Positions 7,901 through 30,429 are shown, counted from the stretch's first letter. The stretch is DNA of 64,000 nucleotides from Steroidobacter gossypii (GCF_016801985.1 NZ_JAEVLS010000004.1:62001-126000), one strand, 5' to 3'. The notes: generated by a model not told the origin, from the sequence alone. A program made the numbers and translations.

Positions 7901-10900
7901 ACCAAGCCTGCGCGAATCGGAAGCTCGGTCGCGAGGTCGAAGACGTATCCGCTCTCTTCGCGTCTCAGCTGAGACAGGCGCTCGGCCTGAGCCTCCGGCG
8001 AGCACGAGGACAGGTCCACATGCCACAGTGGCAGCGACCTCGGCGCATGCACCACCTGTCTGGCTTCGCCGTCCACCGCCGCGTAGGTGGTCCTCAGAAT
8101 CTCGTGACGCTCGATCAATGCATCCAGGCTCGACTGCAACGCCTGCACGTTCACTGCGCCGCTCAGTCGCACGCTGGCGGGAATGTTGTATTGAGGGCTG
8201 CCGCCCTCCAGCCGATCGATGAACCACAACCGCTGCTGAGCCGACGAGAGCGGCAATGGTGCGTCCCGTGGCGCCGCCGGTATGGCGCCCGTCGCGTCGA
8301 CATCCAGCAGGTCGATGTGCTTCGCCAGGGCACGAATCGTGTTGTGCTCGAACAGCGCTTTGATCGGCACGTCCCGCCCGAAGCGCTCGGCGAGCCGATT
8401 CGCGACGCGGATCGCCAGCAACGAGTGACCGCCGAGCGTGAAGAAATCCTGGTCGACACCAACGCGCTCGAGCTTCAGCTCCTTGCGCCAGATGTCAGCG
8501 ATGCCGGCTTCCGTTGCGTTGCCTGGTTCGCTGCCCACGTCCGTTGCTGCTGGCGGCGCAGGCAATGCACGCTTATCGACCTTGCCGTGGATGGTCAACG
8601 GCAACGCGTCCAGCTCGACGAAGACGCTGGGGACCAGGTAATCCGGCAGTCGCTGCTTCAGCTGAGTTTTGAGTTGCGCAACATCGACGGGGCGACTGGT
8701 GGGTACGAAATAAGCGATCAACTGTCTGTCGATCGCTGTGCCGCGTACGATGACGGCCGCCGCCTTGATCTCAGAGAGCTGCCGCAACTGCGACGCGATC
8801 TCTTCGGGCTCGATGCGGAACCCCCGAATCTTGATCTGATCGTCCGCGCGTCCCAGATACTCGATCTCGCCGTTCTCGAGATGGCGAACCAGATCACCGG
8901 TGCGGTAGAGCCTCGCGCCCGCAGTATCGCCGAACGGATCGGGCACAAACCGCGCCGCTGTCAGCGAGGAGCGGTTCAGATAGCCACGGGAGACACCGAC
9001 GCCCCCGATATACAACTCGCCGACGCAAAGCGGCGGCACCCGGTTCATGCGGTCGTCACATATATATTGCCGCACGTTCGCGAGCGGTCGGCCGAGGATC
9101 GGCTTCGAGCCGCTGATCCGGGTCCAGCAGCTGTCGACGCATGTTTCCGTGGGGCCGTAGACGTTGAATGCCCTGCGCCCGTGACGCTGCTGCCACGTGA
9201 CCAGGCGCGCCCAAAGTTCGGCCGTGATCGGCTCGCCGCCGATGACGAGATCCGGAAGCAGTTCGCCCAGCCCGACGCCGAGCCACAGATCGAGCATGGA
9301 CGGCGTGCAATCGATGGTCGCCAGCGGGAAGGTTGCGAGCGAGCGTCGCAACACCTGCGGATCGAGCCTGGCTTCATCGGGAAAGATAACCAGTGGCCGT
9401 CCGGCGATGAGTTGCGCGATGCCCTTGAGCGAGCCATCGAACGCGAAGGAAACGGTCCAGCCCCATCCACCCTCGCGCTCATCGCCGATCAGTGCGCGCA
9501 GGTTCTGCGTGAGGTTCACGACGGAGTGATGAGCAACGGCGACGCCATTGGGCCGACCAGTGGTCCCTGAAGTGTAGATCACATAGGCGAGACTTTGCGG
9601 GGTGAGTCCCGGCACGACATCGACATCGTTCGTCTCATAACCATGCACGTGATCCTGGAACTCGGCGTCATCCAAGCAGACCGTAGGCAAGTCACGATCC
9701 AACACGCCTCGATGACGTAGCTGCGTCAGCACCAACGCAACGCCGCTGTTTTTGCTGATGTAAGACAAGCGTTCCGCAGGATACGTCGGATCGACGGGCA
9801 CAAAAGCACAGCCTGCCTTCATCGTGCCCAGGATCGCGACGATCATATCCAGGCTGCGACCGAGACAAATGCCGACGCGGCTTTCAGCAGGCAGACCCTG
9901 CGCCCGCAAGTAGCGCGCGAGCTGGTTGGATCGAGCATTGAGCGCGGCGAAATCTAGCGACTCTCCCTCGAACACCACCGCCGTGCGCTCCGGCGTCGTC
10001 GCTGCCTGCTGCTCGAACAGCTGGTGCAAACAAACGGCTGGATAGTGCGTCCTCGCGCCCTGCCATGACGACATGCGCTCGACATCCGAGGCCGTTAGCA
10101 ACGGCGCGGCGAATAGTGGCTCGGCAGGAGCCGAGACGATCCGTTCAAGCAGCAGCTCGAACGACGTCGCCAGTCTCGCTAACGTCGAGGGCTCGAACAA
10201 GCTCCGTGCATAGATCCAATTCAGAGAAAGCTCATCTTCACGCTCGATGACATTCAACGTGAGATCGAACTTCGCGACGCCGTGGCTGGTATCCCACTTG
10301 AGCGTACGACCCCGCAAGCTGGACGGCGCCGCTTCTTGAAGGTCGCTGCTTTGCTCGCGCCGGTTCAGCATGAACATGACCTGGAACACCGGTGTGTGAC
10401 TCAGGCTGCGCTCAGGATTCAGCTCCTCCACCAACATGTCGAACGGCACTTCCTGATGCTCGAATGCATCCAGGATCATCGTTCGATTGCGCGCCAGTAG
10501 CTGGTCGAAGCTCTCGCACGTCGTGACCTCGCTTCGAAGCACCAGCGTGTTGACGAAGAAGCCGATCAGCGGCTCGAGGTCCTTGTGGGTGCGGCCCGCG
10601 ATCGGGCTGCCCATCACGATGTCCTGTTCGCGGCTCCAGTAGCTCAGCAGCGCGGCGAAGGCACACTGCAGCACCATGAACAGGCTGGCGTTGTGATGTG
10701 CCGCCAACGTTTGCAGCCGCTGCAACAGTTCCTTGCCCAGGCGCTGCTCGAATACGTCGCCTTTGAAGTCCATCTGCGCCGGGCGCACTCGGTCCAGCGG
10801 CAAGCTATGCACCGTCGGTATGCCCGCCAGTTGTGACTGCCAGTAAGCACGCTTGCGAGCGAACTCCGGCTCCTCCATCCGAGCGCGCTGCCAGTGCGCG

Positions 10901-13900
10901 TAGTCCGCGTATTGAATCGGCAGCTTCGGTAGATCACTCGGCACGCCGGCGCAGAACGACGCGTACAGCTCATTCAGCTCTCGCAGCAGGATCTGCATCG
11001 ACCACGCATCCGAGGCGATGTGATGCTGAGTCAGCAGTAGCACGTGGTCTTGCTCGCTCAAGCGAACCAGGCCGGCGCGAATCGGAAACTCATTCGTGAG
11101 ATCGAAGACGTAGCCACTCTCTTCGCGCCTCAGCTGGGAGAGGCGCTCGGCTTGCACCTCTTTCGGATACGACGACAGATCCACTTGCCACAGCGGCAGC
11201 GACTTCGGCGCATGCACCACCTGTCTGGCCTCGCCCTCCACGACAACGTAGGTGGTCCTGAGGATTTCGTGACGCTCGATGATCGCGTCCAGGCTGGCCT
11301 GCAACGCCTCCACGTTCAGCGCGCCACTCAGCCGCAGTCCCGCAGGAATGTTGTATTGCGCGCCGCCGCCCTCCAGCCGGTCGATGAACCATAGCCTCTG
11401 CTGCGCGAAGGACAAGGGCAATGTTTGCTGCCGAGAAACTCTCGGTATGCTGCCGACCGCATCGCCTTCCAGCCGGTCCATGTACCTGGCGAGATCCCGA
11501 ATGGTGTTGTGCTCGAACAAGGCCTTGATCGGCGCCTCTCGTCCGAATCGCTCGGTGATCCGGTTGGCGATGCGAATCGCGAGCAGCGAGTGGCCACCCA
11601 CCGAAAAGAAGTCTGCATCGACGCTGATGCGATCGAGCTTGAGCTCCCTGCGCCATATCTCGGCGATCGCCCTTTCGGTCTGGTTCAAGGGTTCGCAAAC
11701 GACCGCTGCTGTCGTTGGAGGCTCGGGCAAGGCTCGCTTGTCAATCTTGCCGTTGCCTGTCAACGGCAGTGCCTGCAACTCTACGAATGCAGCGGGAACC
11801 AGGTAGTCCGGCAGTTGTTGCTTGAGCTTCAACCTGAGTGCAGCGATGTCGACAGGCTCGCCGGCGCGAACGAAGTAAGCGATCAGTCGCTTGTCGTTCG
11901 CCTGGCCGCGCGCGACCACTGTGGCCGCCTTGATCTCGGGGAGCTTCAGCAACTGCGATGCTATTTCACCGGGCTCGATACGGAAGCCGCGGATCTTGAC
12001 CTGGTCGTCGGTTCGTCCGAGATACTCCAGATCGCCATTGTCCAGGTAGCGAACCAGGTCGCCGGTGCGATAAAGCCTCGCGCCAGCGACTGCACTGAAT
12101 GGATCCGGCACGAAACGCGCAGCGGTCAGCGAGGAGCGGTTCAGATAACCTCGAGAGACACATACACCGCCGATGTACAGCTCGCCGACACAAAGTGGCG
12201 GCACGGGATTCATCTGATCGTCACATACATACTGCTGCACGTTCGCGAGCGGCCGGCCGATGTTCGGTTTCGGACCGCGGACTCGAGTCCAGCAACTGTC
12301 GACGCACGTCTCGGTGGGCCCATATACATTGAATGCCCGGCGACCGTAACGATCCTGCCACTCGAGCAGTCGCATCCATAGATCCACGCTGACAGGCTCG
12401 CCACCGACGACGATGTCAGGCAAAAGCTCACCCAAGCCGACGCTCAGCCACAGATCGAGCATGGAAGGCGTGCAGTCGATCACCCCGAGCGGCAGCGCGG
12501 CGAGCGAACGACTCAACACTCGCGGATCATGGCGCGCGTCCTCGGAGAAGATCACGACCGAACGACCGTGCATGAGCTCGGCGATGGCCTGGAGCGACCC
12601 GTCGAACGCGAACGACGCAATCCATCCCCATGCGCCGCGGCACTCATCCCCGATGAGTGCGTGCATGTTCTTGGCCAGATTCACCACCGAGGAATGAGGA
12701 ACCGCGACACCGTTTGGCCGACCGGTCGTTCCCGACGTATAGATCACATACGCGAGACTTTGCGGGGACAAGCCCGGCACGTCATCGACATCGTCCGTTC
12801 CATAGCCACGCACGTGATCCTGAAAGGCGGCGTCGTCCACGCAGACGGTGGGCACGTCACATTCCAGCGCGTCTCGATGGGGCAACTGCGACAGCACCAA
12901 CGCAACGCCACTGTCCTTGCTGATGTACGACAGACGATCCGCAGGGTAGGTCGGATCGAGCGGCACATAGGCACAGCCCGCCTTCAAGGACGCGATGATC
13001 GCGACGATCATGTCCAGGCTGCGGCCGATGCAAACGCCGATGCAGCTTTCCGCAGGCAACTTCTGCGCCAACAGATAGCGTGCCAGTTGGTTGGATCGAG
13101 CATTGAGCTCGGCGTAGCTCAGCGACTCTTTCTCGAACACCACCGCCGTGCGCTCTGGCGTCGTCTCCACCTGCTGCTCGAACAGCCGGTGCAAACAGAT
13201 CAAGGGATAGTCGGCGTTCGGGCCTTGCCACGACGATATCCGCTCGACATTCGCCAGCGTCAACAGCGGTGTACCGAACATGGGCCGCTCAGGGAATGCC
13301 GTGACCCGCTCAAGCAGCAGCTCGAACGCCGCGCCCAGCTGGCTCAACGTCGCGCCGTCAAACAGGCTCTTTGCATAAATCCAATTCAGCGACAGGCCAT
13401 CCGAGCGCTCGTTGGCGTTCAACGTGAGATCGAACTTCGCGACGATGCGACTCGATCCCCACTCCAACTCGCGGCTTCGGAGGCCGTTCGCCTGCGGAGC
13501 ATTCGCCTGCGTCGCGCCCCGATCATGGTTCAGCGTGAACATGATCTGGAACACCGGCGTGTGACTCAGACTGCGCTCGGGCTGCAGCTCCTCCACCAAC
13601 ATGTCGAACGGCACTTCCTGATGCTCGAACGCGTCGAGGATCATCGCTCGATTGCGCGTCAACAGCTGACCGAAACTCTCGCTCGGCAAGATCTCGCTTC
13701 GGAGCACCAGGGTGTTGACGAAGAAGCCGATCAGCGGCTCGAGGTCCTTGTGGGTGCGGCCTGCGATCGGGCTGCCCATCACGATGTCGCGTTCGCGGCT
13801 CCAGTAGCTCAGCAGCGCGGCGAAAGCGCTCTGCAGCACCATGAACAGGCTGGCGTTGTGATGGGCCGCCAACGTTTGCAGCCGCTGCAACAGCTCCTTG

Positions 13901-16554
13901 CCCAGGCGCTGCTCGAACACGTCTCCCGTGAAATCCATCTGCGCCGGGCGCACTCGGTCGAGGGGCAAGCTGTGCACCGTCGGGATGCCTGCCAGTTGTG
14001 ACTGCCAGTATGCGCGCTTGCGAGCGAACTCCGGCTCGGACATCCGGCTACGCTGCCAGTGCGCGTAGTCCGCGTATTGAATCGGCAGCTTCGGTAGATC
14101 ACTCGGCACGCCGGCGCAGAACGACGCGTACAGCGCTTCGAGCTCCCTCATCAGGATCTGCATCGACCACGCATCCGAGGCGATGTGATGCTGACTCAGC
14201 AGTAGCACGTGGTCTTGTTTGCCGAGGCGAACCAAGCCGGCGCGAATCGGAAACTCGTTCGCGAGATCGAAGACGTAGCCACTCTCTTCGCGCCTAAGCT
14301 GGGAGAGGCGCTCGGCTTGCACCTCTTTCGGATACGACGACAGATCCACCTGCCAAAGTGACAGCGGCCTCGGCGCATGCACCACCTGTCTGGCCTCACC
14401 GTCGACCGCCGCGTAAGTGGTCCTCAGGATTTCGTGGCGCTCGATGATCGCATCCAAGCTCGCCTGCCACGCGTCCACGTTCAACGCGCCACTTAGTCGC
14501 AATCCGGCGGGAATGTTGTATTGCGCGCCGCCGCCCTCCAATCGATCGATGAACCACAGCCGTTGCTGCGCGAACGACAATGGCAATGATTGCTCCCGCA
14601 AAACCACGGGTATGCCCTCGCCCGTGCTCTCCACGTCGAGCGAGTCGATGTGCCTGGCCAGGTCCCGAATGGTGTTGAAGTTGAAGATCTCGGTCATGCC
14701 GAGCTCGATCTGGAACGTTTCGTTCGCAGCGTTGAGCATCAGGATGGCGCGCAGCGAATTGCCGCCCATATCGAAGAAATTCGTCGCGACGCCGACCGAC
14801 TCGATATCCAGCACCTCCTGCCAGATACTCGCCAATGCAGCTTCGGTCTCCGTCTCCGCCGCAACGTAAGATGCGTCAAGCGCTCGCGATGCTTTCTCGG
14901 TCTGCGATGTCGAGTGATTGCCGTGCAATCCTGTCTCACCTATCTCATCGGCGAGCAGGTCCGAAACCCGCGAAGTGGCATCGCGCGTCACCGCTTTGAG
15001 TATCCGAGCGAGCGTTGCAGACATCTGCTCGACCAGCGCCCGGTCGAACAGGTCCTGACGGTAGTCCCACCGCAGCCTCAGCCCTTTGTCGTCCTGGTGG
15101 ATGACGATCTCGAGTTCGTTCTTCGGGGTGAATCCGCCCTTCGACATGGGCCGCATGACCGCCCCGTCGCTCGCCTCGTGATCGGCGCCGCGTTGCTTGT
15201 CCGGCCAGCTGATCATCAATTGAAACAGCGGACTGTGCGTCTGGCTCCGCGGCGGGTTGAGCTCGCTCACCAGCATGCTGAAAGGCACGTGCTGGTTGTC
15301 ATACGCCTCGAGAATCGTTGCCGCGTTCCGGCGCATGAACTCGACGAACGTCTGGTTCGGGTCGACGTCGCTACGTAGCACGAGCACGTTGACCATCAGG
15401 CCGACCATGGCCTCGAGCTCCTTATGCGTGCAGCCGGTGATCGTCGTGCCGACCACCACATCTCGCCGCGCGCTGTAGGCGGCGACGACCAAGGCGAACA
15501 CCGCGTGCAACAGCATGAAGGGCGTGCACTCGACGCTCCGGCACAGTTGCCTCGCGCCTTGCGCAACGTCGGCGTCAACGTGCTGCCAGAACGAGGCGCC
15601 GGAGCCCTGAACCTTGGCCTGCCTCGGTCCCTTCAGCGGCAAGGCATGCACCTCGGGAAGATCGGCCAGCTGCTTCCTCCAGTAACCCAGCTGCTTCTCG
15701 ATGAACTCCTTCTGCATCAACTCGCGATGCCAGCAAGCGTAATCTCCATACTGGAGTTGCAGCGGTTGCAGGCGAGGTTCCACACCCTGTTGGTACGCGT
15801 CATAGGCCGCGAACATTTCCTTGCGAACGAGTTCCATCGAGCGAGCGTCCGCGGCGATGTGGTGCACGTTCACCAGGACTCCGCACGCGCGGTCGCTCAG
15901 TGGAATGATCGATACCCGGAATGGCAACTGGGTCTCGAGATCGAAAGGCGCCGACGCATCGGCATGCGCCAAGCGTTGCAACTCCGTCTGCTGCTGCGGT
16001 TCCGGCAGACCTCTCAGGTCGAACTCCACCACCGGCAGCGAGTAGTGCTCGTGAACGATCTGCTCCGGCACTCCGTCCGCACCATAATCGAAGGTCGTCC
16101 TGAGAATCTCATGCCGGCGCAGTACATAAGCGATGGCGCGTTTGAAGTTGCTGGTGTCGAACGCGCCTTCCACCACGTACGCACGTGGCATGTTGTATGT
16201 CGTGTCTGCCTCGGCGTAACGAGACAGAATCCACAACTGCTGTTGTGCATGGGTCAGAGGAATGCGCGCCCCAGGTCGTCTTCTCGGGATCGGCGCCGCG
16301 ACGTGCTCTGGATCGACCGTTCTGTCGAGCAGCGATTGCAGATAGCCCACGATCTCTTCGCGGTAGTTTCGTACCGCGTCCAGCAGGCTCTTCGGCACCG
16401 TTCCCGGTTTCGCCTTCAGCGTGAGCTTGCCGTTCTCCAGCGTGAGGCTGGCGTCCTTCTCCTGCAGTTGCCGGAGCAGTTGCTGGACGGTGAGCTCACG
16501 ATCCTGCAATGGATCGCGGGCGGCCATCGCCGCCGTCTTCACGCTACCAATCAT
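1..16554 (-). CDS. Giant nonribosomal peptide synthetase, docking-C-T-(C-A-T)x4-C-A..., C-terminus outside window
   Basis: This is one open frame of 5,518 codons without a stop, running off the left edge. I checked that the conserved A-domain motif LYIGG stays in the same frame at 12.18, 9.01, 5.85 and 2.71 kb. Domains in order are a TubC-type N-terminal docking domain (residues about 15-75), C1, T1 (Ser600), then four C-A-T modules with carrier serines at about 1656, 2711, 3766 and 4813, then C6 and the start of a fifth A domain. Condensation HHxxxD motifs start at His231, 789, 1844, 2899, 3953 and 5001. No epimerisation, methylation or terminal thioesterase domain is seen. The ATG at 16554 overlaps the stop of the upstream nicotianamine-synthase-like gene as ATGA; a second in-frame ATG lies at 16527. 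It is the assembly line of the cluster, and termination must lie beyond the window. Confidence 0.96.
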   Translation of the reverse strand, partial: MIGSVKTAAMAARDPLQDRELTVQQLLRQLQEKDASLTLENGKLTLKAKPGTVPKSLLDAVRNYREEIVGYLQSLLDRTVDPEHVAAPIPRRRPGARIPLTHAQQQLWILSRYAEADTTYNMPRAYVVEGAFDTSNFKRAIAYVLRRHEILRTTFDYGADGVPEQIVHEHYSLPVVEFDLRGLPEPQQQTELQRLAHADASAPFDLETQLPFRVSIIPLSDRACGVLVNVHHIAADARSMELVRKEMFAAYDAYQQGVEPRLQPLQLQYGDYACWHRELMQKEFIEKQLGYWRKQLADLPEVHALPLKGPRQAKVQGSGASFWQHVDADVAQGARQLCRSVECTPFMLLHAVFALVVAAYSARRDVVVGTTITGCTHKELEAMVGLMVNVLVLRSDVDPNQTFVEFMRRNAATILEAYDNQHVPFSMLVSELNPPRSQTHSPLFQLMISWPDKQRGADHEASDGAVMRPMSKGGFTPKNELEIVIHQDDKGLRLRWDYRQDLFDRALVEQMSATLARILKAVTRDATSRVSDLLADEIGETGLHGNHSTSQTEKASRALDASYVAAETETEAALASIWQEVLDIESVGVATNFFDMGGNSLRAILMLNAANETFQIELGMTEIFNFNTIRDLARHIDSLDVESTGEGIPVVLREQSLPLSFAQQRLWFIDRLEGGGAQYNIPAGLRLSGALNVDAWQASLDAIIERHEILRTTYAAVDGEARQVVHAPRPLSLWQVDLSSYPKEVQAERLSQLRREESGYVFDLANEFPIRAGLVRLGKQDHVLLLSQHHIASDAWSMQILMRELEALYASFCAGVPSDLPKLPIQYADYAHWQRSRMSEPEFARKRAYWQSQLAGIPTVHSLPLDRVRPAQMDFTGDVFEQRLGKELLQRLQTLAAHHNASLFMVLQSAFAALLSYWSRERDIVMGSPIAGRTHKDLEPLIGFFVNTLVLRSEILPSESFGQLLTRNRAMILDAFEHQEVPFDMLVEELQPERSLSHTPVFQIMFTLNHDRGATQANAPQANGLRSRELEWGSSRIVAKFDLTLNANERSDGLSLNWIYAKSLFDGATLSQLGAAFELLLERVTAFPERPMFGTPLLTLANVERISSWQGPNADYPLICLHRLFEQQVETTPERTAVVFEKESLSYAELNARSNQLARYLLAQKLPAESCIGVCIGRSLDMIVAIIASLKAGCAYVPLDPTYPADRLSYISKDSGVALVLSQLPHRDALECDVPTVCVDDAAFQDHVRGYGTDDVDDVPGLSPQSLAYVIYTSGTTGRPNGVAVPHSSVVNLAKNMHALIGDECRGAWGWIASFAFDGSLQAIAELMHGRSVVIFSEDARHDPRVLSRSLAALPLGVIDCTPSMLDLWLSVGLGELLPDIVVGGEPVSVDLWMRLLEWQDRYGRRAFNVYGPTETCVDSCWTRVRGPKPNIGRPLANVQQYVCDDQMNPVPPLCVGELYIGGVCVSRGYLNRSSLTAARFVPDPFSAVAGARLYRTGDLVRYLDNGDLEYLGRTDDQVKIRGFRIEPGEIASQLLKLPEIKAATVVARGQANDKRLIAYFVRAGEPVDIAALRLKLKQQLPDYLVPAAFVELQALPLTGNGKIDKRALPEPPTTAAVVCEPLNQTERAIAEIWRRELKLDRISVDADFFSVGGHSLLAIRIANRITERFGREAPIKALFEHNTIRDLARYMDRLEGDAVGSIPRVSRQQTLPLSFAQQRLWFIDRLEGGGAQYNIPAGLRLSGALNVEALQASLDAIIERHEILRTTYVVVEGEARQVVHAPKSLPLWQVDLSSYPKEVQAERLSQLRREESGYVFDLTNEFPIRAGLVRLSEQDHVLLLTQHHIASDAWSMQILLRELNELYASFCAGVPSDLPKLPIQYADYAHWQRARMEEPEFARKRAYWQSQLAGIPTVHSLPLDRVRPAQMDFKGDVFEQRLGKELLQRLQTLAAHHNASLFMVLQCAFAALLSYWSREQDIVMGSPIAGRTHKDLEPLIGFFVNTLVLRSEVTTCESFDQLLARNRTMILDAFEHQEVPFDMLVEELNPERSLSHTPVFQVMFMLNRREQSSDLQEAAPSSLRGRTLKWDTSHGVAKFDLTLNVIEREDELSLNWIYARSLFEPSTLARLATSFELLLERIVSAPAEPLFAAPLLTASDVERMSSWQGARTHYPAVCLHQLFEQQAATTPERTAVVFEGESLDFAALNARSNQLARYLRAQGLPAESRVGICLGRSLDMIVAILGTMKAGCAFVPVDPTYPAERLSYISKNSGVALVLTQLRHRGVLDRDLPTVCLDDAEFQDHVHGYETNDVDVVPGLTPQSLAYVIYTSGTTGRPNGVAVAHHSVVNLTQNLRALIGDEREGGWGWTVSFAFDGSLKGIAQLIAGRPLVIFPDEARLDPQVLRRSLATFPLATIDCTPSMLDLWLGVGLGELLPDLVIGGEPITAELWARLVTWQQRHGRRAFNVYGPTETCVDSCWTRISGSKPILGRPLANVRQYICDDRMNRVPPLCVGELYIGGVGVSRGYLNRSSLTAARFVPDPFGDTAGARLYRTGDLVRHLENGEIEYLGRADDQIKIRGFRIEPEEIASQLRQLSEIKAAAVIVRGTAIDRQLIAYFVPTSRPVDVAQLKTQLKQRLPDYLVPSVFVELDALPLTIHGKVDKRALPAPPAATDVGSEPGNATEAGIADIWRKELKLERVGVDQDFFTLGGHSLLAIRVANRLAERFGRDVPIKALFEHNTIRALAKHIDLLDVDATGAIPAAPRDAPLPLSSAQQRLWFIDRLEGGSPQYNIPASVRLSGAVNVQALQSSLDALIERHEILRTTYAAVDGEARQVVHAPRSLPLWHVDLSSCSPEAQAERLSQLRREESGYVFDLATELPIRAGLVHLGEQVHVLLLTQHHMASDGWSMQILIRELDELYDACCNSRSANLPPLSIQYADYAHWQRSRMSEPEFARKRAYWKSQLAGVPTVHSLPLDRVRPAQMDFTGDVFEQRLGKGLLERLQTLAAHHNASLFMVLQSAFAALLSYWSRESDIVMGSPIAGRTHKDVEPLIGFFVNTLVLRSEISPSESFGQLLTRNRAMILDAFEHQEVPFDVLVEELQPERSLSHTPVFQIMFALNPREQSADQQESALAGLRSRALKSYTGNVIAKFDLSLTVNQRADGLSLNWTYAKSLFEAPTVARLAASLELLLERIVEAPVEPLFRAPLVTVADAERMSSWQGAFTDHPYICLHQLFETQVAMSPERMAVMYEGESLSYAALNARANQLARYLLSQQLPAESRVGLCIARSLDMIVAILGTLKAGCAYVPLDPTYPAERLSYVSKDSGLALVLTQLDHRDVLECDVPTMCLDDAAFQGHLRRYETNDVGELPGLCAGSLAYVIYTSGTTGRPNGVAVPHRSVVNLAENLRTLIGNECEGAWGWVASFAFDASVQAIAQLVSGRPVVIFSEEARRHPKALRRTLESFPLAVMDCTPSIVDLWLGVGLGEVLPDLVIGGEPITQDLWARLVEWQERQGRRAFNVYGPTETCVDSCWTPIRGPKPNIGRPLANVQQYVCDDRMNLVPPLCVGELYIGGVGVSRGYLDRPSLSAERFVPDPFGAVSGARLYRTGDLVRYLANGDLEYLGRTDEQVKIHGYRIEPAEIATRLLQLREIKAATVVVRAAAAGRQLIAYVVPACAPIDAAMIKAQLKQWLPDYMVPAVFVELDELPLTNHGKIDKRALPPPPATADVVCDPSNETEAAIADIWLEELKLDRVSTDQDFFALGGHSLLAIRIANRIRERLGRDAPIKALFEHNTIRDLAKYVASLEADASRIPAASREAPLPLSSAQQRLWFIDRLDGGSPRYNIPAGLRLSGELNVAALQSSLDALVERHEILRTTYVAVDGEARQVVNAPRPLSLRQVDLSSYSKEVQAERLSQLRREESGYVFDLANEFPIRARLVRLGEQDHVLLLIQHHIASDAWSMQILLRELNELYASFCAGVPSDLPKLPIQYADYAHWQRSRMSEPEFARKRAYWQSQLAGIPTVHSLPLDRVRPAQMDFTGDVFEQRLGTNLLAGLQKVAAHHNASLFMVLQSAFAALLSYWSREQDIVMGSPIAGRTHKDLEPLIGFFVNTLVLRSDVSPRDSFDQLLTRNRTMILDAFEHQEVPFDLLVEELQPERSLSHSPVFQIMFALNRQEQSSDRRESTPAGLRSRALGADRSGVAKFDLTLNATEHAEGLSLHWIYATSLFERSTVARLAASFELLLNRITESAAEPLFNVRMVTAADAERLSSWHGPKADYPSVCLHQLFEAQAAAAPEHIAVVFEGSTLNYGALNARANQLARYLLSLHLPAESRVGLCIARSLDMIVAVLGTLKAGCAYVPLDPSYPADRLSYISKDSGLGLVLTQLPHRGVLECEVPAVCLDDAVFQKQLCTYAPDDVDEVLSPQSPAYVIYTSGTTGRPNGVAVPHCSVVNLVHCSLPMLGVGRESRVLQFATLNFDAASWEWPMALLNGASLHICPRRTMASPDALSEFLIEQRITHAVLPPALLAYMQPDRPYSLQMLMVGGEACEKASAWKWAERWRLLNGYGPTEATVCATLAEVGPGMPITIGKPLPNVRCYVLNHAMKAVPPGCIGELYIGGAGVSRGYLNRPSLTAERFVPDTFDVAPGRRMYRTGDLVRYLDGGELEYLGRTDEQVKIRGFRIEPSEIASQLSQLPEVKSAAVIVRGNANDKQLVAYVVATSQLVDIAQLKSQLKQRLPDYMVPPVFVELDALPMTANGKVDKRALPAPPTTADVVCEPLNEIEAAIAEIWRNELKLNRVSVDQDFFALGGHSLLAIRIVNRIAERLGRDVPIKALFEHSTIRDLASHIAAMSTGESGPIPQVPREAALPLSSAQQRLWFIDQLEGGGAQYNIPAGMRLSGAVNVQALQSSLDALIERHEILRTTYATVNGEARQVVHAPRSLPLWQVDLSSYSPDVQAERLSQLRREESGFVFDLANEFPIRAGLVRLGEQDHALLLTQHHIASDAWSMQILLRELEALYDAYREGRSANLRPLSVQYADYAHWQRARMAEPEFARKRAYWQSQLAGIPTVHSLPLDRVRPAQMDFTGGMFEQRLGKALLERLQTLAAHHNASLFMVLQSAFAALLSYWSREQDIVMGSPIAGRTHKDLEPLIGFFVNTLVLRSDVSPRESFDQLLTRNRAMILEAFEHQEVPFDLLVDDLQPERSLSHTPVLQILFALNHDEARAPVRELLGRRLKRDSNEVVAKFDLSLNAHERTDGLALTWIYATRLFEPSTLATLAASFELLLERIVEAPEQPLFAKPLVTAADAERMSAWQGAEANHTYICVHRLFEATAAATPERTAVVFEGESLSFKELNARANRLARYLLAQRLSAESAVGLCIGRSLDMIVAILGVWKAGCAYVPLDPTYPAERLSYISKDSGLALVLTQQQHRDALECDVPVLCLDDGEFQDRIRGYGSGDVDEVTRLSPASLAYVIYTSGTTGRPNGVAVAHQSVFNLAANLRELIGQDVTAAWGW
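2010..5095 (-). other. NRPS module 5 (C5-A4-T5), unusual hydrophobic-type pocket
   Basis: C5 has HHIASDA at His3953, A4 has its motif near residue 4435, and the carrier serine is Ser4813. A4 is from a different lineage than A1-A3 (core FDAASWEW rather than SFAFDGS). Its pocket reads about D-A-W-V-M-G-G-V-C-K, which does not match a code I know. It looks hydrophobic or small. It is the natural candidate to accept a special residue made by the tailoring genes, but that is inference. Confidence 0.65.
4561..4702. repeat. 142-bp exact repeat between two condensation domains (copy 2 at 10888-11029)
   Basis: Bases 4561-4702 (C5) and 10888-11029 (C3) are identical over 142 bases. The first 82 bases also occur exactly at 14053-14134 (C2). 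The flanks are very similar over several hundred bases (about 4200-4960, 10550-11290 and 13690-14450). This indicates recent duplication or gene conversion between condensation domains of the same gene. It also makes this gene prone to misassembly with short reads. Confidence 0.93.
5150..8260 (-). other. NRPS module 4 (C4-A3-T4), predicted Gln
   Basis: C4 carries HHMASDG at His2899, slightly different from its sisters. A3 has its nucleotide-binding motif near residue 3385, and the carrier serine is Ser3766. The pocket read by eye is D-A-Q-D-V-G-V-V-D-K, nine of ten positions identical to the recalled Gln code DAQDLGVVDK. This is the best-supported substrate prediction in the protein. Confidence 0.72.
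8310..11430 (-). other. NRPS module 3 (C3-A2-T3), predicted Glu
   Basis: C3 has HHIASDA at His1844, A2 has its nucleotide-binding motif near residue 2330, and the carrier serine is Ser2711. The hand-aligned pocket reads D-G-K-D-V-G-V-V-D-K, close to the Glu code DAKDLGVVDK. The Lys at position 3 is the feature that favours Glu over Gln. Confidence 0.68.
11480..14610 (-). other. NRPS module 2 (C2-A1-T2), predicted Gln
   Basis: C2 has HHIASDA at His789. A1 has YTSGTTGRPNG near residue 1270 and a carrier domain with GGHSLL at Ser1656. Aligning by eye to the GrsA phenylalanine-activating domain gives the pocket residues D-G-Q-D-V-G-V-V-D-K. This is closest to the Gln code DAQDLGVVDK that I recall from lipopeptide synthetases. 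The assignment depends on a manual alignment. Confidence 0.7.
14660..16540 (-). other. NRPS segment 1: docking domain, C1 and T1, no adenylation domain
   Basis: After about 15 residues, a stretch of about 60 residues (LTVQQLLRQLQEKD...) resembles TubC-type N-terminal docking domains, which accept a chain from a separate upstream protein. C1 follows with HHIAADA at His231 and is the most divergent C domain of the protein. It leads straight into a carrier domain (DMGGNSLRA, Ser600) with no A domain between. The T1 substrate must be loaded in trans, or T1 must receive its chain from the discrete carrier protein encoded at 23937-24185. The domain order is read from the sequence; the loading partner is inference. 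Confidence 0.85.
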
Positions 16555-17387
16555 CGGAGCAGCAACGACGAAATCGTGTCCTCGTCGCCTCCACTCGCCA
16601 CGCGCGAGTCCACGATGGAGAATCCAGCGAGATCCTCCCGGCCGGCCAGCGGCTCGTACAGAAACCGGCGCAGTCCATAGGAAGTCCGGCAGATGATCTG
16701 CGCGTCGGGCTTCCTGGTCCTGGCGATGTTTTCGAGAATCACCCGCTTGGGCTTCGCCAACAGCGCAATGATGATGAGGTCGTACTGCGCGACCGAATAC
16801 GCAGGTTCGGCCCGATGGATCGGCCGCAGCCTGTCATGCAGGGCGAGCGCATCGATCATGCTTTGCGAGCGCGCGATCGCGTCGACGTTGATGTCGACGC
16901 AGTCGATGGCGCTGTCGAGATAGCCCGCCATCAGGATCGCGCTGATCGGCAGAGGCCCGGAGCCAATGAACAGCGCCTTGGGCGCGGCGCTGATGCGAAC
17001 CATGGAGAACTCGCGGGCCAGCAGCCTGCGAAACCGCTCATACAACAGGTACTCCCGGTAGCTGGCCACGGCGCCACTCTCCAGCGCCATGACGAAGCGT
17101 GTCTCGAGTTCTGTCTCCCAGGCGAGGTAGGCGCGATTGAAAAGCCACAGCAGGTTGCCAATCGGCTCTTCGGGAATGGTGTCGCGGCCACTGCCGCAGG
17201 CTGCAAAAATCCTGGCTTCCAGCTGCAGAATGAGATCGTTCAGCTGCGCAAAGTGATTGCCGGCATCGCTGATCATCTCGGGCTGTTCGAGCAGCCGCGC
17301 CGCCGTGTACCGGGCAAACGCCACGAACTGCGGACATGCGGCTTCGGTTGGTTCGATCCTTGCGCTTGCGATGCTAGCAGCCGTCAT
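16551..17387 (-). CDS. Nicotianamine-synthase-like enzyme
   Basis: The 278-residue product has the nicotianamine synthase signature. There is a SAM-binding loop FIGSGPLPISAI (about residues 140-151), an acidic VDINVDA segment, a YDLIIIALL strand, and a CRTSYGLRRFLYEP segment matching the RSAHGARAFLY region of plant enzymes. Family members transfer aminocarboxypropyl groups from SAM; plant enzymes finish by closing an azetidine ring, while bacterial CntL-type enzymes make a single transfer onto a histidine. The gene sits directly upstream of the NRPS, whose ATG overlaps its TGA, and its own start overlaps the GMC oxidoreductase by 14 bases. It probably supplies an azetidine-2-carboxylate or aminobutyrate-type building block, or modifies the peptide. 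A plain opine-metallophore role is less likely because no opine dehydrogenase is next to it. Confidence 0.82.
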   Translation of the reverse strand: MTAASIASARIEPTEAACPQFVAFARYTAARLLEQPEMISDAGNHFAQLNDLILQLEARIFAACGSGRDTIPEEPIGNLLWLFNRAYLAWETELETRFVMALESGAVASYREYLLYERFRRLLAREFSMVRISAAPKALFIGSGPLPISAILMAGYLDSAIDCVDINVDAIARSQSMIDALALHDRLRPIHRAEPAYSVAQYDLIIIALLAKPKRVILENIARTRKPDAQIICRTSYGLRRFLYEPLAGREDLAGFSIVDSRVASGGDEDTISSLLLR

Positions 17388-18918
17388 CGTGACACCCTTC
17401 CCTGAGTATTGCCTTATCCGTCGTCCAATCGACGGCCCGCAGTGTGCGAACCTGGCTCTTCAACAAGTCGCCCAGGCGAGCCGCCAGCGCCATGACCGTC
17501 AACGTCGGGTTTGCCAGGCCCGCCGTGGGAAACACCGAGGTCCCGCATACGTACAGATTGTCGATTCCATGGACTTTGCAGTCGCGATCGACCACGCCTT
17601 GCGACGGATCGTCGTGCATGCGCGTGGCCCCGATGTGGTGCCGGCTGAGTTCCGCCGTCGCAGCCGGATCGAAATGCAGATCGGAGTCGCTGAGCCTGCC
17701 GAGCTTCGAGTGCTCGAGGAATCCTGCAAACAGACGCACGCCGCGGTTCAAGTTCTCGATGTCCTTGCGATCGAAGCGCCATTCCAGGTGCAGGCGGCGC
17801 AAACCCAACGCATCCTCGTCGTCCGTGAGCGTCAGTCGGCTCTGCGGATTCGGCGCCTGCTCCGTCATGAAAAACAACGGGTAATGATCGTCCGCCGCCT
17901 CCGGCTCAGGGCGCTCGAGCGTGACCGAGAAGCCCATCATTCTTTCTCGCCACTGCGCCTTGGAGGCGAGCGTGAATATGCCCTGCAGACGTGTTGGATC
18001 TTTGTCTGAATACAGCGCCAATGACTGCCCGCAACCTGGCATCACCGCGAAACACGGTTCGCTTCCACCACGAGCTACGTTCTTGAAAACCGTGTGGCCG
18101 CTGTAGAAACGGCCGACGACGTCGCAATCGTTCCCCAGCCCGTTTGGCTGCTGTCTATTGGAATTGAGCAGGAGTCGCGGATTCTCGAGCCCTCCAGCCG
18201 CAAGAACGAAGCACCGCGCTTCCACAGTGCACTGCTTTCCCGAATTCGTCTTGACGTGCAGGCGCGAGACGGACTGCACGTTCGCCGAGCACTGGATATC
18301 TGTGACCGTCGCGTTCAAATAGATGGAAACGTTGTGCTGCCTCGCCACGCGACGCTTGAACTCGGCGAAGGAATCTCCTGGCGCGCTTCCCGTCAGGCCG
18401 CTGAAGCAGCGCAGCGCCGTCGTGAAGTTGTCGCCATCCTCGCATCGGGTGAGCACCGGGCGCTCCTGCAGCTCGCGCGAGATGGATGTAACGTCCAGCG
18501 TCGTCGGGATATTGAGCGCGTAACAAGCACGATCGTAGTAGCGCTCCAACTCGTCGAGCCCGATGGGCCAGCCGCTGTAATCAACCCACGGACGTTGCCG
18601 GAAATCATGTCGCTCGAGCTTCGCGCACTTGCCGCCCCAGACATTCCCCGTGCCGCCGAAATATCGCTCCCGCGATTCGTGCAGGTAATCGTCGAACCGC
18701 CGCGACGATCCATCGGGGTTCACGATGCGACCGGTCCCGCGACTCAATGCCTGGCTATGCTCGGAGAATCCGACACCGCCGCTCTCCAGCACCACGACCG
18801 ACGCCTGCGACAGTTTCAGCTCGCTCGCCAGATACAGACCTGCCATGCCGGCGCCGACGATCGCGACGTCGCATCGGATCGGCGCATCACTGTCGCGGCT
18901 GTGCAGATCGATCATCAT
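17374..18918 (-). CDS. GMC-family FAD-dependent oxidoreductase
   Basis: The product has 514 residues. The N-terminal FAD-binding motif GAGMAGLYLASEL follows a DVAIV strand. A GGTGNVWGG segment and a C-terminal HHIGATRM plus CGTSVFPTAGLANPT block are typical of the GMC family, including the His and Asn at the active site. Family members oxidise alcohols or dehydrogenate C-H bonds next to heteroatoms. The start at 18918 was chosen because ATG overlaps the KAS III stop (ATGA) and lies just before the FAD motif. Longer starts would add an unlikely leader read from inside the previous gene. It is presumably a tailoring oxidase acting on the peptide or a building block; the substrate is unknown. 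Confidence 0.88.
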   Translation of the reverse strand: MMIDLHSRDSDAPIRCDVAIVGAGMAGLYLASELKLSQASVVVLESGGVGFSEHSQALSRGTGRIVNPDGSSRRFDDYLHESRERYFGGTGNVWGGKCAKLERHDFRQRPWVDYSGWPIGLDELERYYDRACYALNIPTTLDVTSISRELQERPVLTRCEDGDNFTTALRCFSGLTGSAPGDSFAEFKRRVARQHNVSIYLNATVTDIQCSANVQSVSRLHVKTNSGKQCTVEARCFVLAAGGLENPRLLLNSNRQQPNGLGNDCDVVGRFYSGHTVFKNVARGGSEPCFAVMPGCGQSLALYSDKDPTRLQGIFTLASKAQWRERMMGFSVTLERPEPEAADDHYPLFFMTEQAPNPQSRLTLTDDEDALGLRRLHLEWRFDRKDIENLNRGVRLFAGFLEHSKLGRLSDSDLHFDPAATAELSRHHIGATRMHDDPSQGVVDRDCKVHGIDNLYVCGTSVFPTAGLANPTLTVMALAARLGDLLKSQVRTLRAVDWTTDKAILREGCHDDGC

Positions 18919-19838
18919 GACGCGACGACGCCGCGACCCGTGGCTCTCAGAGGCAGCATCGCCATGAATCCCGGTGCGTAGGACTGCAACATGAAATGCT
19001 CGCCGCTGGCCGCCGGATTGGAGTGCAGATAGTCGAGCATGTTGATGATGGGATCGGAACACGCACAGTGGCCATAGGACGCGGCCGTTCGCGTGTACAC
19101 CTGCTTGAGCGACAAGGCGGCCGCATACACCTTCGAGATCGGTTCGAAGAAATTGGTCGAGAATACCTTGCTCAACTGTTGCGGCTGCAGGCCGGCGCGC
19201 TGCAAGGATTTCTTGAGCACGCTTTGGCCCAGCCGAGTGCGCACGTTGAAGTCATCGGTGCCTGTGGCGCCCTGCCAGTCGTAGCCGCTCGCATAGCCCA
19301 GTATCTGGAGCCCGCTTCGACCCTTCGAAACAATGCAGCTGGATGCCGCGTCGCTGAGCACTCCGTATGGCGCGACTCGGTCATCATCCGAGGGCGTCAC
19401 GTCGAAGCACACGACAAGCGCGCTGCGCATGTCCTCATCCTGCAGGGATCGAGTTGCGACATCGATGGCCGTCAGCAGCGACAAGCATTCTTGCAGCGAA
19501 ACCGCCAGCGGCATGGCTCGCTGGAGGCCATGCTTCTGCAGCAGCCGCTGCACGAACGATCGATCCAGGGACTCAGCCGTGTGGCGTGCGGACGCAAACA
19601 CGAACGCGTCGATCTCGCTCGCATCGAGCGCCGCGTCCGCCAGAGTTCGCGACATCGTCGCCGAGATCATTTCTTCCAGCGGCTGCCGAGCTTCGTAGAA
19701 GTAACGGCAGCCCAGCATCTTGGTATTGGCCGGCAGGCCGGCGCGCTTGAACTGCCCTTCCACGCCGTCTATGGACAGGACTTCGCGCTGGGTGTTGCCC
19801 AGCTCGAAGCTCAACGAATGCAGTGCGACCGCGCTCAT
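18915..19838 (-). CDS. KAS III-like (thiolase-fold) acyl-transfer or condensing enzyme, atypical active site
   Basis: The 307-residue product has the beta-ketoacyl-ACP synthase III length and fold pattern. The nucleophile is Cys118 in SLQECLSLL. The usual second and third residues look changed. The segment expected to carry the HQAN histidine reads FSTNFFEP (Asn229), and the segment expected to carry YGN reads YGHCACSDP (His257). This suggests either a rearranged triad or a non-decarboxylating acyltransferase role, as known for some KAS III-like enzymes in secondary metabolism. The start at 19838 overlaps the previous stop as TGATG. Its acyl donor may be the discrete carrier protein at 23937-24185. 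Confidence 0.78.
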   Translation of the reverse strand: MSAVALHSLSFELGNTQREVLSIDGVEGQFKRAGLPANTKMLGCRYFYEARQPLEEMISATMSRTLADAALDASEIDAFVFASARHTAESLDRSFVQRLLQKHGLQRAMPLAVSLQECLSLLTAIDVATRSLQDEDMRSALVVCFDVTPSDDDRVAPYGVLSDAASSCIVSKGRSGLQILGYASGYDWQGATGTDDFNVRTRLGQSVLKKSLQRAGLQPQQLSKVFSTNFFEPISKVYAAALSLKQVYTRTAASYGHCACSDPIINMLDYLHSNPAASGEHFMLQSYAPGFMAMLPLRATGRGVVAS

Positions 19839-21163
19839 CAAGCGGCACTCACTGTGTTGTGACGATCTGCACTCGCATGCCAGTGCGCCGAAATGCCCTC
19901 GTACATTCCATAGAACAGGTCGCAAGTGGTCCGTACCGCCTCCAGCGCTTCCTGTTGCATGCGAGCGTTCTGGCACACAGCCGCAACCAGGCTGATGCCT
20001 TCCTTGACGTGCCCGACATCCTCTTTCTGGTGAACGGAGAAAAAGCTCAGATCGTCCGCCGTCAAACCGTAGACTCGGGGGAGCAGGTCGTGTCGCGCAT
20101 CGCCCGCCGCCGTCTCCAGGTTCTGGCCTTCGCTGCCGATCATCACGGCGGCGGCGCCCATGTGGAATGTGTAGCGATTCCTCACCAGGTCCATTCGATA
20201 GTCGATCAGTCGCTTGGTGGACGGCAACGGCTGCGCCGCGTCCCTGGTCGGCTCGTCGATGCCGATAGCGCGAATGAAGTTCTGCATCAACGTCACGTGA
20301 TTGTCGGTCGAGGAGAAACGACCGGTCTCCTCCTCGAACATGTTGTAGAGCAGGCGTCGCTTGTGCACGCCGCGCGGACAGTGGTGATAAAGGATCTCGA
20401 TGTAGCTGAGGAAGTGCTTGGTGAGCTGGTAGCCCTGCAGCGTCATGAAGCGCAGCAACTCCCAGTTCGGCTCGCCGCTCAGCACCTCCTTGATGATGGG
20501 ATGGGTCATCGTCACGCGCGCCATCAGCTCCTCGCGCAGCGCAACCTTGAACACCTCCTCCGGCATCATGGTTGCCTTCCTGGATGAAAGGCGCCGGGAC
20601 GACGCTTCGCTCGCCCCCCTCGTGAGTGCCTCGAGGCGCTCGATCAGCTCGTCGGTGTATTGATACATGTACGCACCCGAGAAAGACTCCCCGTCGACGC
20701 GTGCGTAATCGTGCAGGATTCCATATTCCTTGAAGCCCAGCCGGCTCCAGATGCTGTGCGGCTCGGTTCCCGCTCGTACGTCGAGCGTGAGCATGTCATA
20801 GCCTTCGAGCTTGGCTCTCTCGGCGACATGTAACAGCGCGCCCGGCAGAATACCGCTGGCCCGCAGCTCCGAGTGAATCGCACCTTTGGAAATCTCGGCG
20901 ATGTGTTTGCAGTTCGGCAGTTTGTTCGGTGTGAGTATCGCGGTGCCGACCAGTCGCTCGCCGCTGTAGATGCCGAACAGCAGAATGCGCTTCTCGCCGA
21001 GCGCGTCATTCAAACGATGCACGATCGAAACACGCTCGCTCGGCTCGATCGGTTCCGGATAGCCCAGATAGGTACCGGAAGTGAGCGCGTCGTCATAGAG
21101 CTCTAGCAGGGCGCGCCCACTGTGCTCATCCAGCGTGGTGATCCAACGGTAATCTACCGGCAT
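19838..21163 (-). CDS. GNAT acetyltransferase fused to heme-oxygenase-like diiron oxidase
   Basis: The product has 441 residues. Residues about 1-165 form a GNAT domain with an RASGIL acetyl-CoA-loop-like motif near residue 101. Residues about 200-430 are an all-helical heme-oxygenase-like domain. Its potential ligands are in the spacing I recall for SznF-type diiron oxidases: Glu256, Glu279, His289 (10 after Glu279), Glu345, then HQKEDVGH giving His378, Asp382 and His385. Such oxidases N-oxygenate amines, cleave C-C bonds or build small rings. The ATG at 21163 is preceded by a GGGA Shine-Dalgarno at 7 bases, and a hairpin lies just upstream. It is the first gene of the distal half of the cluster. 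Substrate and reaction are unknown. Confidence 0.85.
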   Translation of the reverse strand: MPVDYRWITTLDEHSGRALLELYDDALTSGTYLGYPEPIEPSERVSIVHRLNDALGEKRILLFGIYSGERLVGTAILTPNKLPNCKHIAEISKGAIHSELRASGILPGALLHVAERAKLEGYDMLTLDVRAGTEPHSIWSRLGFKEYGILHDYARVDGESFSGAYMYQYTDELIERLEALTRGASEASSRRLSSRKATMMPEEVFKVALREELMARVTMTHPIIKEVLSGEPNWELLRFMTLQGYQLTKHFLSYIEILYHHCPRGVHKRRLLYNMFEEETGRFSSTDNHVTLMQNFIRAIGIDEPTRDAAQPLPSTKRLIDYRMDLVRNRYTFHMGAAAVMIGSEGQNLETAAGDARHDLLPRVYGLTADDLSFFSVHQKEDVGHVKEGISLVAAVCQNARMQQEALEAVRTTCDLFYGMYEGISAHWHASADRHNTVSAA

Positions 21164-21176
21164 GTCCCTATCCCGC

Positions 21177-21200
21177 CTGCCGGCGTTTGCTCGCCGGCAG
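21177..21200. promoter_or_regulatory. GC-rich hairpin abutting the ribosome site of the GNAT/diiron gene
   Basis: CTGCCGGCG at 21177-21185 and CGCCGGCAG at 21192-21200 pair perfectly over 9 bp around a 6-base loop. In the transcript the stem ends 13 bases before the ATG, right beside the Shine-Dalgarno sequence. No U-run follows, so it is not an obvious terminator. It may control translation or stabilise the 5' end. Confidence 0.5.
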
Positions 21201-21470
21201 AAGACCACGAATTCACGCGGAGTTTTTTGACCAGGCCGCGCAGATTCTTTGGTTGTTCGAATTCCCTACCGAACTGATGGAACGGTTTAACGAGAGTTCC
21301 CGCTCGTGCGGTGGCCAACATACTGATGGCCACTTGGCCTGTCAACACGTGACATTTGTATATTTCCGAAGCGATGCATACGTAACGTTACTGACAAAAA
21401 CATCGCGCGAAAATATATTTTCACTAGCACGTGCTCGGCGCACTCGGATGGCTGTATGTTCTCGCCTCGT
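21201..21470 (-). promoter_or_regulatory. Palindrome-rich intergenic region, likely internal promoter/operator of the cluster
   Basis: The gap between the decarboxylase stop and the GNAT/diiron gene (21164-21470) is AT-rich compared with its surroundings and holds no gene. It contains three perfect palindromes within 54 bases: GTAACGTTAC (21382-21391), GAAAATATATTTTC (21409-21422) and AGCACGTGCT (21426-21435). The middle one includes TATATT, a good -10 candidate, but I see no convincing -35. The likely role is a second promoter and regulator binding sites for the GNAT-to-NRPS half of the cluster. Confidence 0.5.
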
Positions 21471-22995: not shown

Positions 22996-23937
22996 TCAGT
23001 TCCCGTAAGGTTTTCCCACCAGCTCGGCGATGGACCGCCCGAAGATGCCGTCGATCGAGCGTTGCTCCAGCGCTCGCAGCGGGCCGCGCTCGGAGAACAA
23101 CTCGTCCATCAGCGGCCGCACGCCCGTTTGCAGCGAATGGACCGGCCAGTCCGTTCCGAAAACGATCTTGTGATTCAGGCCCTGCGCAAACAGCGAGGTC
23201 AGGTGCTGCGGCCAGCCTCCATCGCAGAGCACGACCGGAAACGGCGAAATGTCCAGATAAACGTTCGGCCGATACTTGCACATCAGCTTGGCCTGCTCGA
23301 CCAGGTTGACGCCGCCATGCCCCAGGATGAAGTTCACCTCGGGAAACTCCCTGGCAGCCTTGTCGATGAGGTACGGATCGGCGAACGTGAAGTCGAGCGT
23401 CGGTGAAGTGGGCCCGGTGTGCACCAGCACGGGCAACCGATGCCGTCGACATATCTCGTACAGCGGAAAGACGATCTCGCTGCTCGGCGAGAACCCGCAG
23501 GGCGGATATAACTTCAGGCCCTCGAAGCCGAACTCCGTGACGGCGCGCTCGAACAAGTCGAAACCCTCCTTGCCCCAGCGAGGGTCGACGCCTTGAAACA
23601 CCCAAAATCGATCTGGATGGCGCTCGCGGACTGTCACGTGCTGACGCGCGATGCTCTCGATGTCGATCGGCGATTTGAAGACGTACGTGAAGTCCGGCAC
23701 CAGCAGCACCGCCCTGGCGATACCCGCCTCGTCCATCTGCGCGACCAGCTTGTCGCCCATATGGTCTTCGTGCTGCAGCCAGAGCATCTGCGTGATCTTG
23801 TCGACGGAGACGGGCACCCCCTGAAACGCGCTACTCCGGGCCATGTTGGCCGCGACTCCCGCAAAGAATTCGCGAGGCACGCATCTGTTCGAAGCCAGAT
23901 GACAATGAGCGTCGATGATTGCCGGCGGGCGTTGCAT
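22996..23937 (-). CDS. Amidohydrolase-2 family metal-dependent hydrolase/decarboxylase
   Basis: The 313-residue TIM-barrel protein has all expected metal and catalytic residues of the amidohydrolase-related family: DAHCHL at residues 9-14, HTGP, LGHGG and FGTDWP. Relatives hydrolyse amides and lactones or decarboxylate aromatic acids. The ATG overlaps the carrier-protein stop (TAATG) and the next gene starts one base after its stop, so it belongs to the core operon. Possible jobs are trimming the peptide, opening a ring or decarboxylating a precursor; the sequence does not decide. Confidence 0.85.
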   Translation of the reverse strand: MQRPPAIIDAHCHLASNRCVPREFFAGVAANMARSSAFQGVPVSVDKITQMLWLQHEDHMGDKLVAQMDEAGIARAVLLVPDFTYVFKSPIDIESIARQHVTVRERHPDRFWVFQGVDPRWGKEGFDLFERAVTEFGFEGLKLYPPCGFSPSSEIVFPLYEICRRHRLPVLVHTGPTSPTLDFTFADPYLIDKAAREFPEVNFILGHGGVNLVEQAKLMCKYRPNVYLDISPFPVVLCDGGWPQHLTSLFAQGLNHKIVFGTDWPVHSLQTGVRPLMDELFSERGPLRALEQRSIDGIFGRSIAELVGKPYGN

Positions 23938-24185: not shown

Positions 24186-24196
24186 GCTCGATTCCC

Positions 24197-25639: not shown

Positions 25640-25693
25640 GGTCAACGATCCGTGTTATTCCGTTCTGGCTACGTTTCGAAGCGCGCGGCGACA

Positions 25694-27580: not shown

Positions 27581-27626
27581 TGCGTCCTTCCTTGAACGTC
27601 ACACAGCGCCGGCTTTCCGTTCCCGA

Positions 27627-28385: not shown

Positions 28386-28489
28386 GGGCGCAGAAGCTAC
28401 CTCAAGCGCACGAAGGGATCAATTTCGGTGTGACACCACGGATGTCGCCACCAAGCGGACGCGGCGCGCTTAAGGCGTAGGATGAGTCG

Positions 28490-28536: not shown

Positions 28537-28547
28537 CGATGGAGAGA

Positions 28548-30424: not shown

Positions 30425-30429
30425 AAGAT

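Follow-up and report, generated by a model that had tools for sequence, protein, structure and literature searches.

A nicotianamine-synthase-family gene coupled to a nonribosomal peptide synthetase gene in Steroidobacter gossypii, with an oxidase and an acetyltransferase as candidate partners

Nicotianamine synthase (NAS)-fold chemistry has so far been associated with plant metal transport and microbial metallophores. Arabidopsis NAS1 (AtNAS1) requires E77, Y106, E73 and a VGMD motif at residues 206-209; the Y106F variant is inactive, and deletion of VGMD inactivates the enzyme (PMC10248798). In the thermonicotianamine synthase MtNAS, the acceptor amine is deprotonated by Glu81 and Tyr107 (PMC10491745), and PDB entry titles show that E81Q of MtNAS and E84Q of the staphylopine synthase CntL were the mutants crystallised. 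A different family serves nonribosomal peptide synthetases (NRPSs): AzeJ and VioH, MT1-related proteins with deposited structures, make azetidine-2-carboxylate (AZE) for them from S-adenosylmethionine (SAM) (PMC11794875). The substrates of heme-oxygenase-like diiron oxidases (HDOs) are mainly fatty or amino acids (PMC13108848, PMC13185094). We analysed a 64,000-nucleotide stretch of Steroidobacter gossypii (GCF_016801985.1, NZ_JAEVLS010000004.1:62001-126000; hereafter the window), in which a NAS-family gene is translationally coupled to an NRPS gene. We give about an even chance to the reading that this gene encodes a NAS-fold aminocarboxypropyltransferase, part of a trio with an HDO and a GNAT-type acetyltransferase that an NRPS/polyketide synthase (PKS) cluster has absorbed and that provides it with a non-proteinogenic building block.

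The gene occupies 16551..17387 on the minus strand, as do all motifs, residues and cluster genes located below, starts with ATG and encodes a genuine but divergent NAS-family protein of 278 residues. The original prediction, made from the sequence alone, had delimited a real open reading frame (ORF) and had left the strand unstated; translation of the plus strand over this interval does not give the protein. Its family assignment is borne out by profile, sequence and fold, which are concordant. The Pfam NAS profile PF03059 matches the protein with 69.6 bits (E 3.6e-19; cut-off 27.1), and a phmmer search of the PDB puts MtNAS closest among solved relatives (E 8.5e-21 to 1.8e-20). At E<=10 this search returned eight sequences, consisting of MtNAS, CntL and an alanine dehydrogenase; the CntL match was weak (E 0.03, or about 1e-7 with a two-sequence profile). 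Both motifs on which the assignment had relied are present in the protein: the SAM loop GSGPLP (residues 142-147, 16947..16964), equivalent to GGGPLP in MtNAS, and the block CRTSYGLRRFLY (residues 233-244, 16656..16691), equivalent to YRTYTGMRAILY. GC content is uniform (0.624 in the gene, 0.621 in the window).

A two-row AlphaFold model of the protein (pLDDT 61, pTM 0.61) appears to contain the N-terminal helical part and the Rossmann SAM domain of the NAS family. Structural comparison, part of the check originally proposed, placed MtNAS first: its chains led the Foldseek ranking, followed by CntL, and headed the VIA-align results with Z 14.2-14.5 over 192-197 residues. The best superposition aligned 192 residues (model 39..244 on MtNAS 26..261) with a root-mean-square deviation (rmsd) of 3.9. 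AzeJ and VioH were not among the first 50 matches of either fold search. The Rossmann methyltransferase fold, together with COMT chains that reach Z 12.2, the best score of an unrelated protein, could point to an ordinary SAM methyltransferase or to an enzyme whose activity has been lost. However, MtNAS ranks first by both Foldseek and VIA-align over model residues 39-244, and the SAM loop and the catalytic glutamate are retained not only here but also in the NAS protein of the second trio locus described below. On the fold rankings we reject a plain methyltransferase, and consider this alternative as a whole very improbable.

Catalytic positions were compared in an alignment, with trimmed N-termini, of six proteins: the window NAS, MtNAS, a Halocatena protein and homologues from genomes G184, G336 and G571. 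All six have Glu at the MtNAS E81 place, which in the window protein is E95 (17103..17105), aligned with AtNAS1 E77. The AtNAS1 E73 place, located by counting back four positions from the E77 place, holds Glu in the window protein (E91, 17115..17117), G184, G336 and Halocatena, Gly (G77) in MtNAS and Ala in G571. At the catalytic Tyr place (MtNAS Y107, AtNAS1 Y106), Phe is found in the window protein (F119, 17031..17033) and in G184, and Tyr in the other four, while CntL has Ile there when aligned with the two-sequence profile. No VGMD motif occurs in the window protein; at what we take to be its site in the alignment, G336 reads AGLD and Halocatena VG, while the other four proteins show a gap. 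Missing SAM or catalytic residues had been named as evidence against the original prediction, and the outcome is mixed: the SAM loop, E95 and E91 are kept, but the catalytic Tyr is replaced and VGMD is absent. Without these two features the protein is not a canonical nicotianamine synthase. Nor is it CntL proper, given its score of 23.8 bits with the NCBIfam CntL family NF033601, whose cut-off is 350. A single transfer is compatible with the loss of Tyr, because CntL, a one-transfer enzyme, has Ile at that place. Given the Phe, the absence of VGMD and the Ile of CntL, we consider that one aminocarboxypropyl transfer is more likely than synthesis of nicotianamine.

Among described enzymes, MtNAS (PDB 3fpe) is the best sequence and fold match and shares the base, the SAM loop, the RT..G.R..LY block and the lack of an insert where G336 has AGLD; it differs in having Tyr107 and G77 in place of Phe and Glu, and the partners of the window gene, unlike its own, are biosynthetic-cluster genes. 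Plant and fungal nicotianamine synthases share PF03059 and Glu at the E77 and E73 places, but have VGMD and Tyr. CntL and the NAS-like enzymes of opine metallophores resemble the window protein in the Foldseek ranking and in lacking Tyr at the Y107 place, whereas they are set apart by NF033601 and by gene neighbourhood. CntL-like NAS proteins act in opine metallophores (PMC10491745), and a NAS homologue on a Paenibacillus plasmid (L033:11656-13817) adjoins opine metallophore dehydrogenase and nickel ABC transporter genes, a metallophore setting. The window gene could likewise serve stand-alone synthesis of a staphylopine- or nicotianamine-type metallophore, the adjacent NRPS reflecting a chance operon layout. 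Yet a search of neighbouring genes found neither an opine dehydrogenase nor a metal importer, no search for an opine dehydrogenase having been made elsewhere in the genome, and the NAS gene is locked between the GMC oxidoreductase and NRPS genes. We regard a stand-alone metallophore pathway as improbable.

The NAS stop codon and the start of the NRPS gene N1 share the sequence ATGA, and N1 (1..16554) follows directly downstream, as originally predicted. What that prediction missed is that the coupling also extends upstream, and that the partner genes include an HDO and a GNAT. The HDO, KASIII-like, GMC, NAS and N1 genes form a chain in which each gene overlaps the next: the sequence TGATG contains both the stop of the HDO gene and the start of the KASIII-like gene, the latter runs into the GMC gene, and 14 bp are common to GMC and NAS. 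The first gene is a GNAT fused in frame to the HDO (19838..21208; HDO domain 19841-20557), identified with PF14518 (77.7 bits), and a later ATG start is possible. It is followed by a divergent KASIII-like protein of 307 residues (18915..19838, start taken at ATG 19838), placed by PDB matches (E 1.5e-6 and weaker) with Pfam scores below the cut-offs; it is far from known ketosynthases but keeps candidate Cys and His residues. The GMC oxidoreductase (17374..18918; PF05199, 89.5 bits) was given the ATG at 18918 as its start from the gene junctions. Upstream of GNAT-HDO, a 262-bp non-coding stretch (21209..21470) with a GC content of 0.496 is a likely promoter. This AT-rich stretch contains the palindrome GTAACGTTAC (21382-21391), a possible regulator site.

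The combination of NAS, HDO and GNAT recurs in G184, another genome of the same class. Its NAS is 45% identical to the window protein over 195 residues, scores 65.4 bits with PF03059 and lies between an HDO (53% identity, 225 residues) and a GNAT (36%, 179 residues), in the order HDO, NAS, GNAT and with gaps of 71 and 13 bp. In the window, GNAT and HDO form a single fused gene, and the KASIII-like and GMC genes separate the fusion from NAS. None of the NRPS core motifs searched for was detected in frames of at least 700 residues across 54 kb around the G184 NAS, a region with few such frames, the longest of 1,156. At E<=1e-20, the HDO subfamily was found in 3 out of 339 genomes of the class, namely the two with the trio (G000, the genome of the window, and G184) and, with a far weaker match of 85 bits, G470. 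In the phylum draw, which overlaps the class draw and does not include G184, it was found in 2 out of 279 (G000 and G470). This trio of NAS, HDO and GNAT appears to have been absorbed by the NRPS/PKS cluster.

From the residues kept and the gene neighbourhood, we infer a scheme in which E95 would act as the base, and a small acceptor would receive, on its amine, one 3-amino-3-carboxypropyl group from SAM, in a CntL-like manner and with release of methylthioadenosine. Oxidation of the resulting amino acid, or of its precursor, would fall to the HDO, and its N-acylation or protection to the GNAT. The building block might then enter the assembly line at the C-T module (condensation and thiolation domains) that opens N1 without an adenylation (A) domain, or as an amine accepted by the last C domain of the NRPS N6; both are unusual sites that could admit a special unit. 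One of the two roles originally proposed, provision of the NRPS with an aminocarboxypropyl unit derived from SAM, is plausible.

Several observations weigh against this scheme. The trio is known from two loci only, and G184 carries a second HDO (L040:1612-2382, minus strand; 392.6 bits) that adjoins a CheW-type gene, with neither NAS nor GNAT adjacent. No code among the 11 read from adenylation domains of the cluster obviously suits an aminocarboxypropylated amino acid. The VIA-align match to CntL (Z 11.5 over 220 residues, rmsd 5.7) is not above those of the COMT chains by Z, and the quality of the structure model is modest (pLDDT 61). Finally, the AtNAS1 Y106F variant is dead (PMC10248798), so F119 could signal a different reaction.

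The candidate partners were compared with described enzymes. The HDO keeps all six metal-ligand places of CADD (E293, H304, E360, H393, D397 and H400, assigned with what we take to be the CADD ligand numbers), and they are invariant in the HDO alignment. It shares these places with the known HDOs (CADD/NePabS, BesC, PolF and MboA). Its best solved match is the 4-aminobenzoate synthase 9pj4 (E 6.9e-17). In CADD, Tyr27 is the source of the product; in the window HDO this place is Ile239, which led us to reject an identity as 4-aminobenzoate synthase. The GNAT half scores 18.7 with PF00583 within the whole protein, under the cut-off of 20.7, and 21.1, just over it, when searched alone; a tabtoxin-resistance match (E 0.017) is a hint only. 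The GNAT of G184 matches GCN5-type (E 5e-6), tabtoxin-resistance (5.5e-5) and phosphinothricin acetylases, and MPR1 weakly (E 0.37-0.57).

N1 encodes 6,384 residues in the genome contig and extends about 2.6 kb past the window end. Its organisation is TubC_N-C-T-(C-A-T)x5 plus a last C-type domain, the A-less module standing immediately after TubC_N; domains were assigned with Pfam on ten fragments, those within residues 2811-3399 and 3861-4439 solely from motifs. Downstream of N1 come TauD and PhyH oxygenase genes and then N2 to N6. N2 (4,559 residues) was read from motifs as three A-T-E modules (E, epimerization), with Pfam run on residues 1-1530 and 4060-4559; N3 and N5 are C-A-T; N4 is a PKS module (KS-AT-KR-T), and N6 is C/Cy-A-oxidase-T-C (Cy, cyclization). 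The Cy and E assignments come from motifs, Pfam labelling those domains Condensation and the oxidase Nitroreductase. The 11 adenylation codes were read by eye, with code positions and reference codes that we take to be the accepted ones. They appeared Gln/Glu-like in N1 modules 1, 2, 3 and 5, aromatic-like in N1 module 4, Asp-like in all three of N2 and in N3, beta-alanine-like in N5 and Cys-like in N6; none was proline-like.

In N6 (L004:2630-8476; contig 26627-32476, beyond the left end of the window), the nitroreductase-type oxidase stands beside the Cys-like A domain, a likely thiazole arrangement, and the last domain of the protein is a C domain, with no thioesterase behind it, reminiscent of bleomycin-type ends. 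The TauD and PhyH genes (L002:17362-19159) lie near several Asp-like modules and may hydroxylate Asp. On the other side of the trio, profile matches identified a pyridoxal phosphate (PLP)-dependent decarboxylase (21471..22994), PanP-like at 494.9 bits, under the cut-off of 606.1; an amidohydrolase family 2 protein (22996..23937); a free acyl carrier protein (23937..24200), whose start, judged from the junctions, is uncertain (24179, 24185 or 24200); an AMP-forming ligase (24197..25645); an exporter-type ABC transporter (25694..27580); and a thioesterase, probably of type II (27627..28385; PF00975, 139 bits). The decarboxylase probably supplies beta-alanine, which fits the N5 code. Upstream of the cluster, at 30430-32241, lies a gene whose 603-residue product carries five repeats of the BTRD1 (polyglycine hydrolase-like) type.

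This decarboxylase also bears on a role in late tailoring, in which a carrier-bound or released peptide would be aminocarboxypropylated and then decarboxylated by the PLP enzyme, as proposed for MccD/MccE on microcin C (PMC10491745). That precedent is an aminocarboxypropyl transfer within an antibiotic pathway, and the cluster holds both a PLP decarboxylase and a GNAT. MccD/MccE, however, act on a peptide-nucleotide phosphate and were not among the sequence matches of the window NAS, the PanP-like enzyme is accounted for by the N5 code, and the trio also occurs at the G184 locus, where no NRPS was seen. Described NAS and CntL reactions, moreover, use small acceptors (PMC10491745). We therefore think late tailoring quite unlikely.

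Yeast MPR1 is a protective acetyltransferase, and a GNAT of similar function could protect the cell if the NAS-fold enzyme were instead a SAM cyclase that provided the NRPS with AZE or with an azetidine substituted on nitrogen. An azetidine ring is closed by plant NAS (PMC10491745), whose E73 has a Glu counterpart here (E91); N-acetyltransferases often adjoin azeJ-like genes in clusters II-IV (PMC11794875), and the HDO PolF forms azetidine, by a different route (PMC13108848). Against cyclization stand the replaced Tyr, the missing VGMD and the adenylation codes: AZE is disfavoured because a proline-like code would be expected for that substrate. AzeJ and VioH would also supply an NRPS from SAM, but they belong to the MT1 family, AzeJ uses a GxxxG motif, and AzeJ needs SAM alone, which would leave the HDO superfluous (PMC11794875). 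No AZE synthase was among the eight PDB matches, the presence of AzeJ and VioH in the searched PDB set being unconfirmed. Free AZE, the other product originally proposed, is thus not supported, and we rate an AZE-type cyclase as unlikely. The claim that such chemistry would be a new route was too strong, AZE from SAM for NRPSs being already known through AzeJ and VioH (PMC11794875); what would be new is a NAS-fold enzyme for an NRPS. The open-licence literature, in the parts available and including PMC11794875, PMC10491745 and PMC11172717, yielded no description of a NAS in an NRPS cluster, which is not proof of absence, and nothing on NAS or aminocarboxypropyl together with heme-oxygenase-like proteins.

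Homologues are sparsely distributed. A NAS match was found in 1 out of 150 genomes of the family, that of the window itself, in 2 out of 296 of the order, the other being weak, in 3 out of 398 of the phylum, and in 1 out of 3 from the family and the order to which G184 belongs. The KASIII-like protein, too, was matched in only 1 out of 150 family genomes, its own. Within the sampled genomes, the cluster appears to have reached the host family once. Across the class, PF03059 matched 15 out of 369 genomes at E<=1e-3, four of them over the Pfam cut-off (G000, G336, G184 and G308); the other 11 genomes (12 matches), below it, were left out. The G308 match (31.2 bits) was taken as a false positive; it covers profile positions 165-240 only, inside an ORF that is probably CheR, a methyltransferase identity presumed from the start of the ORF. 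The G685 match (31.9 bits) was left out, the start of its ORF being what we take to be PrmA-like. G035 gave a match of 29.5 bits.

Among 72,556 plasmid records, three distant ones contained NAS, and no HDO was found in plasmids. PADLOC searches gave one weak match for NAS (E 0.003, 14.5 bits) and none for GNAT-HDO. In viral contigs, seven stretches matched a pattern, none of them a relative, and a weak scan of genome contigs with two peptide patterns returned 20 stretches with one relative, taken to be the G184 locus again. The G571 protein is a borderline homologue (26.7 bits against the cut-off of 27.1; L029:4633-17135), encoded among genes for an acyl carrier protein, a ketosynthase, two AMP-ligases, an ATP-grasp protein, an N-acetyltransferase, a reductase and a flavin oxidase. 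To judge from this locus, recruitment of NAS-fold enzymes into natural-product clusters may have occurred repeatedly.

A bolder reading, which we hold to be rather unlikely, takes NAS, HDO and GNAT as an undescribed cassette that would use SAM to make a new amino acid, both oxidised and N-acylated, and that the NRPS/PKS cluster took in whole. The Tyr-to-Phe change may then have converted the transferase into a SAM cyclase, or allowed the HDO product to serve as the acceptor, giving an azetidine, alkene or N-oxygenated unit in two steps. The natural Y-to-F change would let the role of the NAS catalytic Tyr be probed. A NAS wired to an NRPS alongside two partners also found with it at another locus, a diiron oxidase and a GNAT acetyltransferase, would, if true, be a new way to unusual amino acids from SAM.

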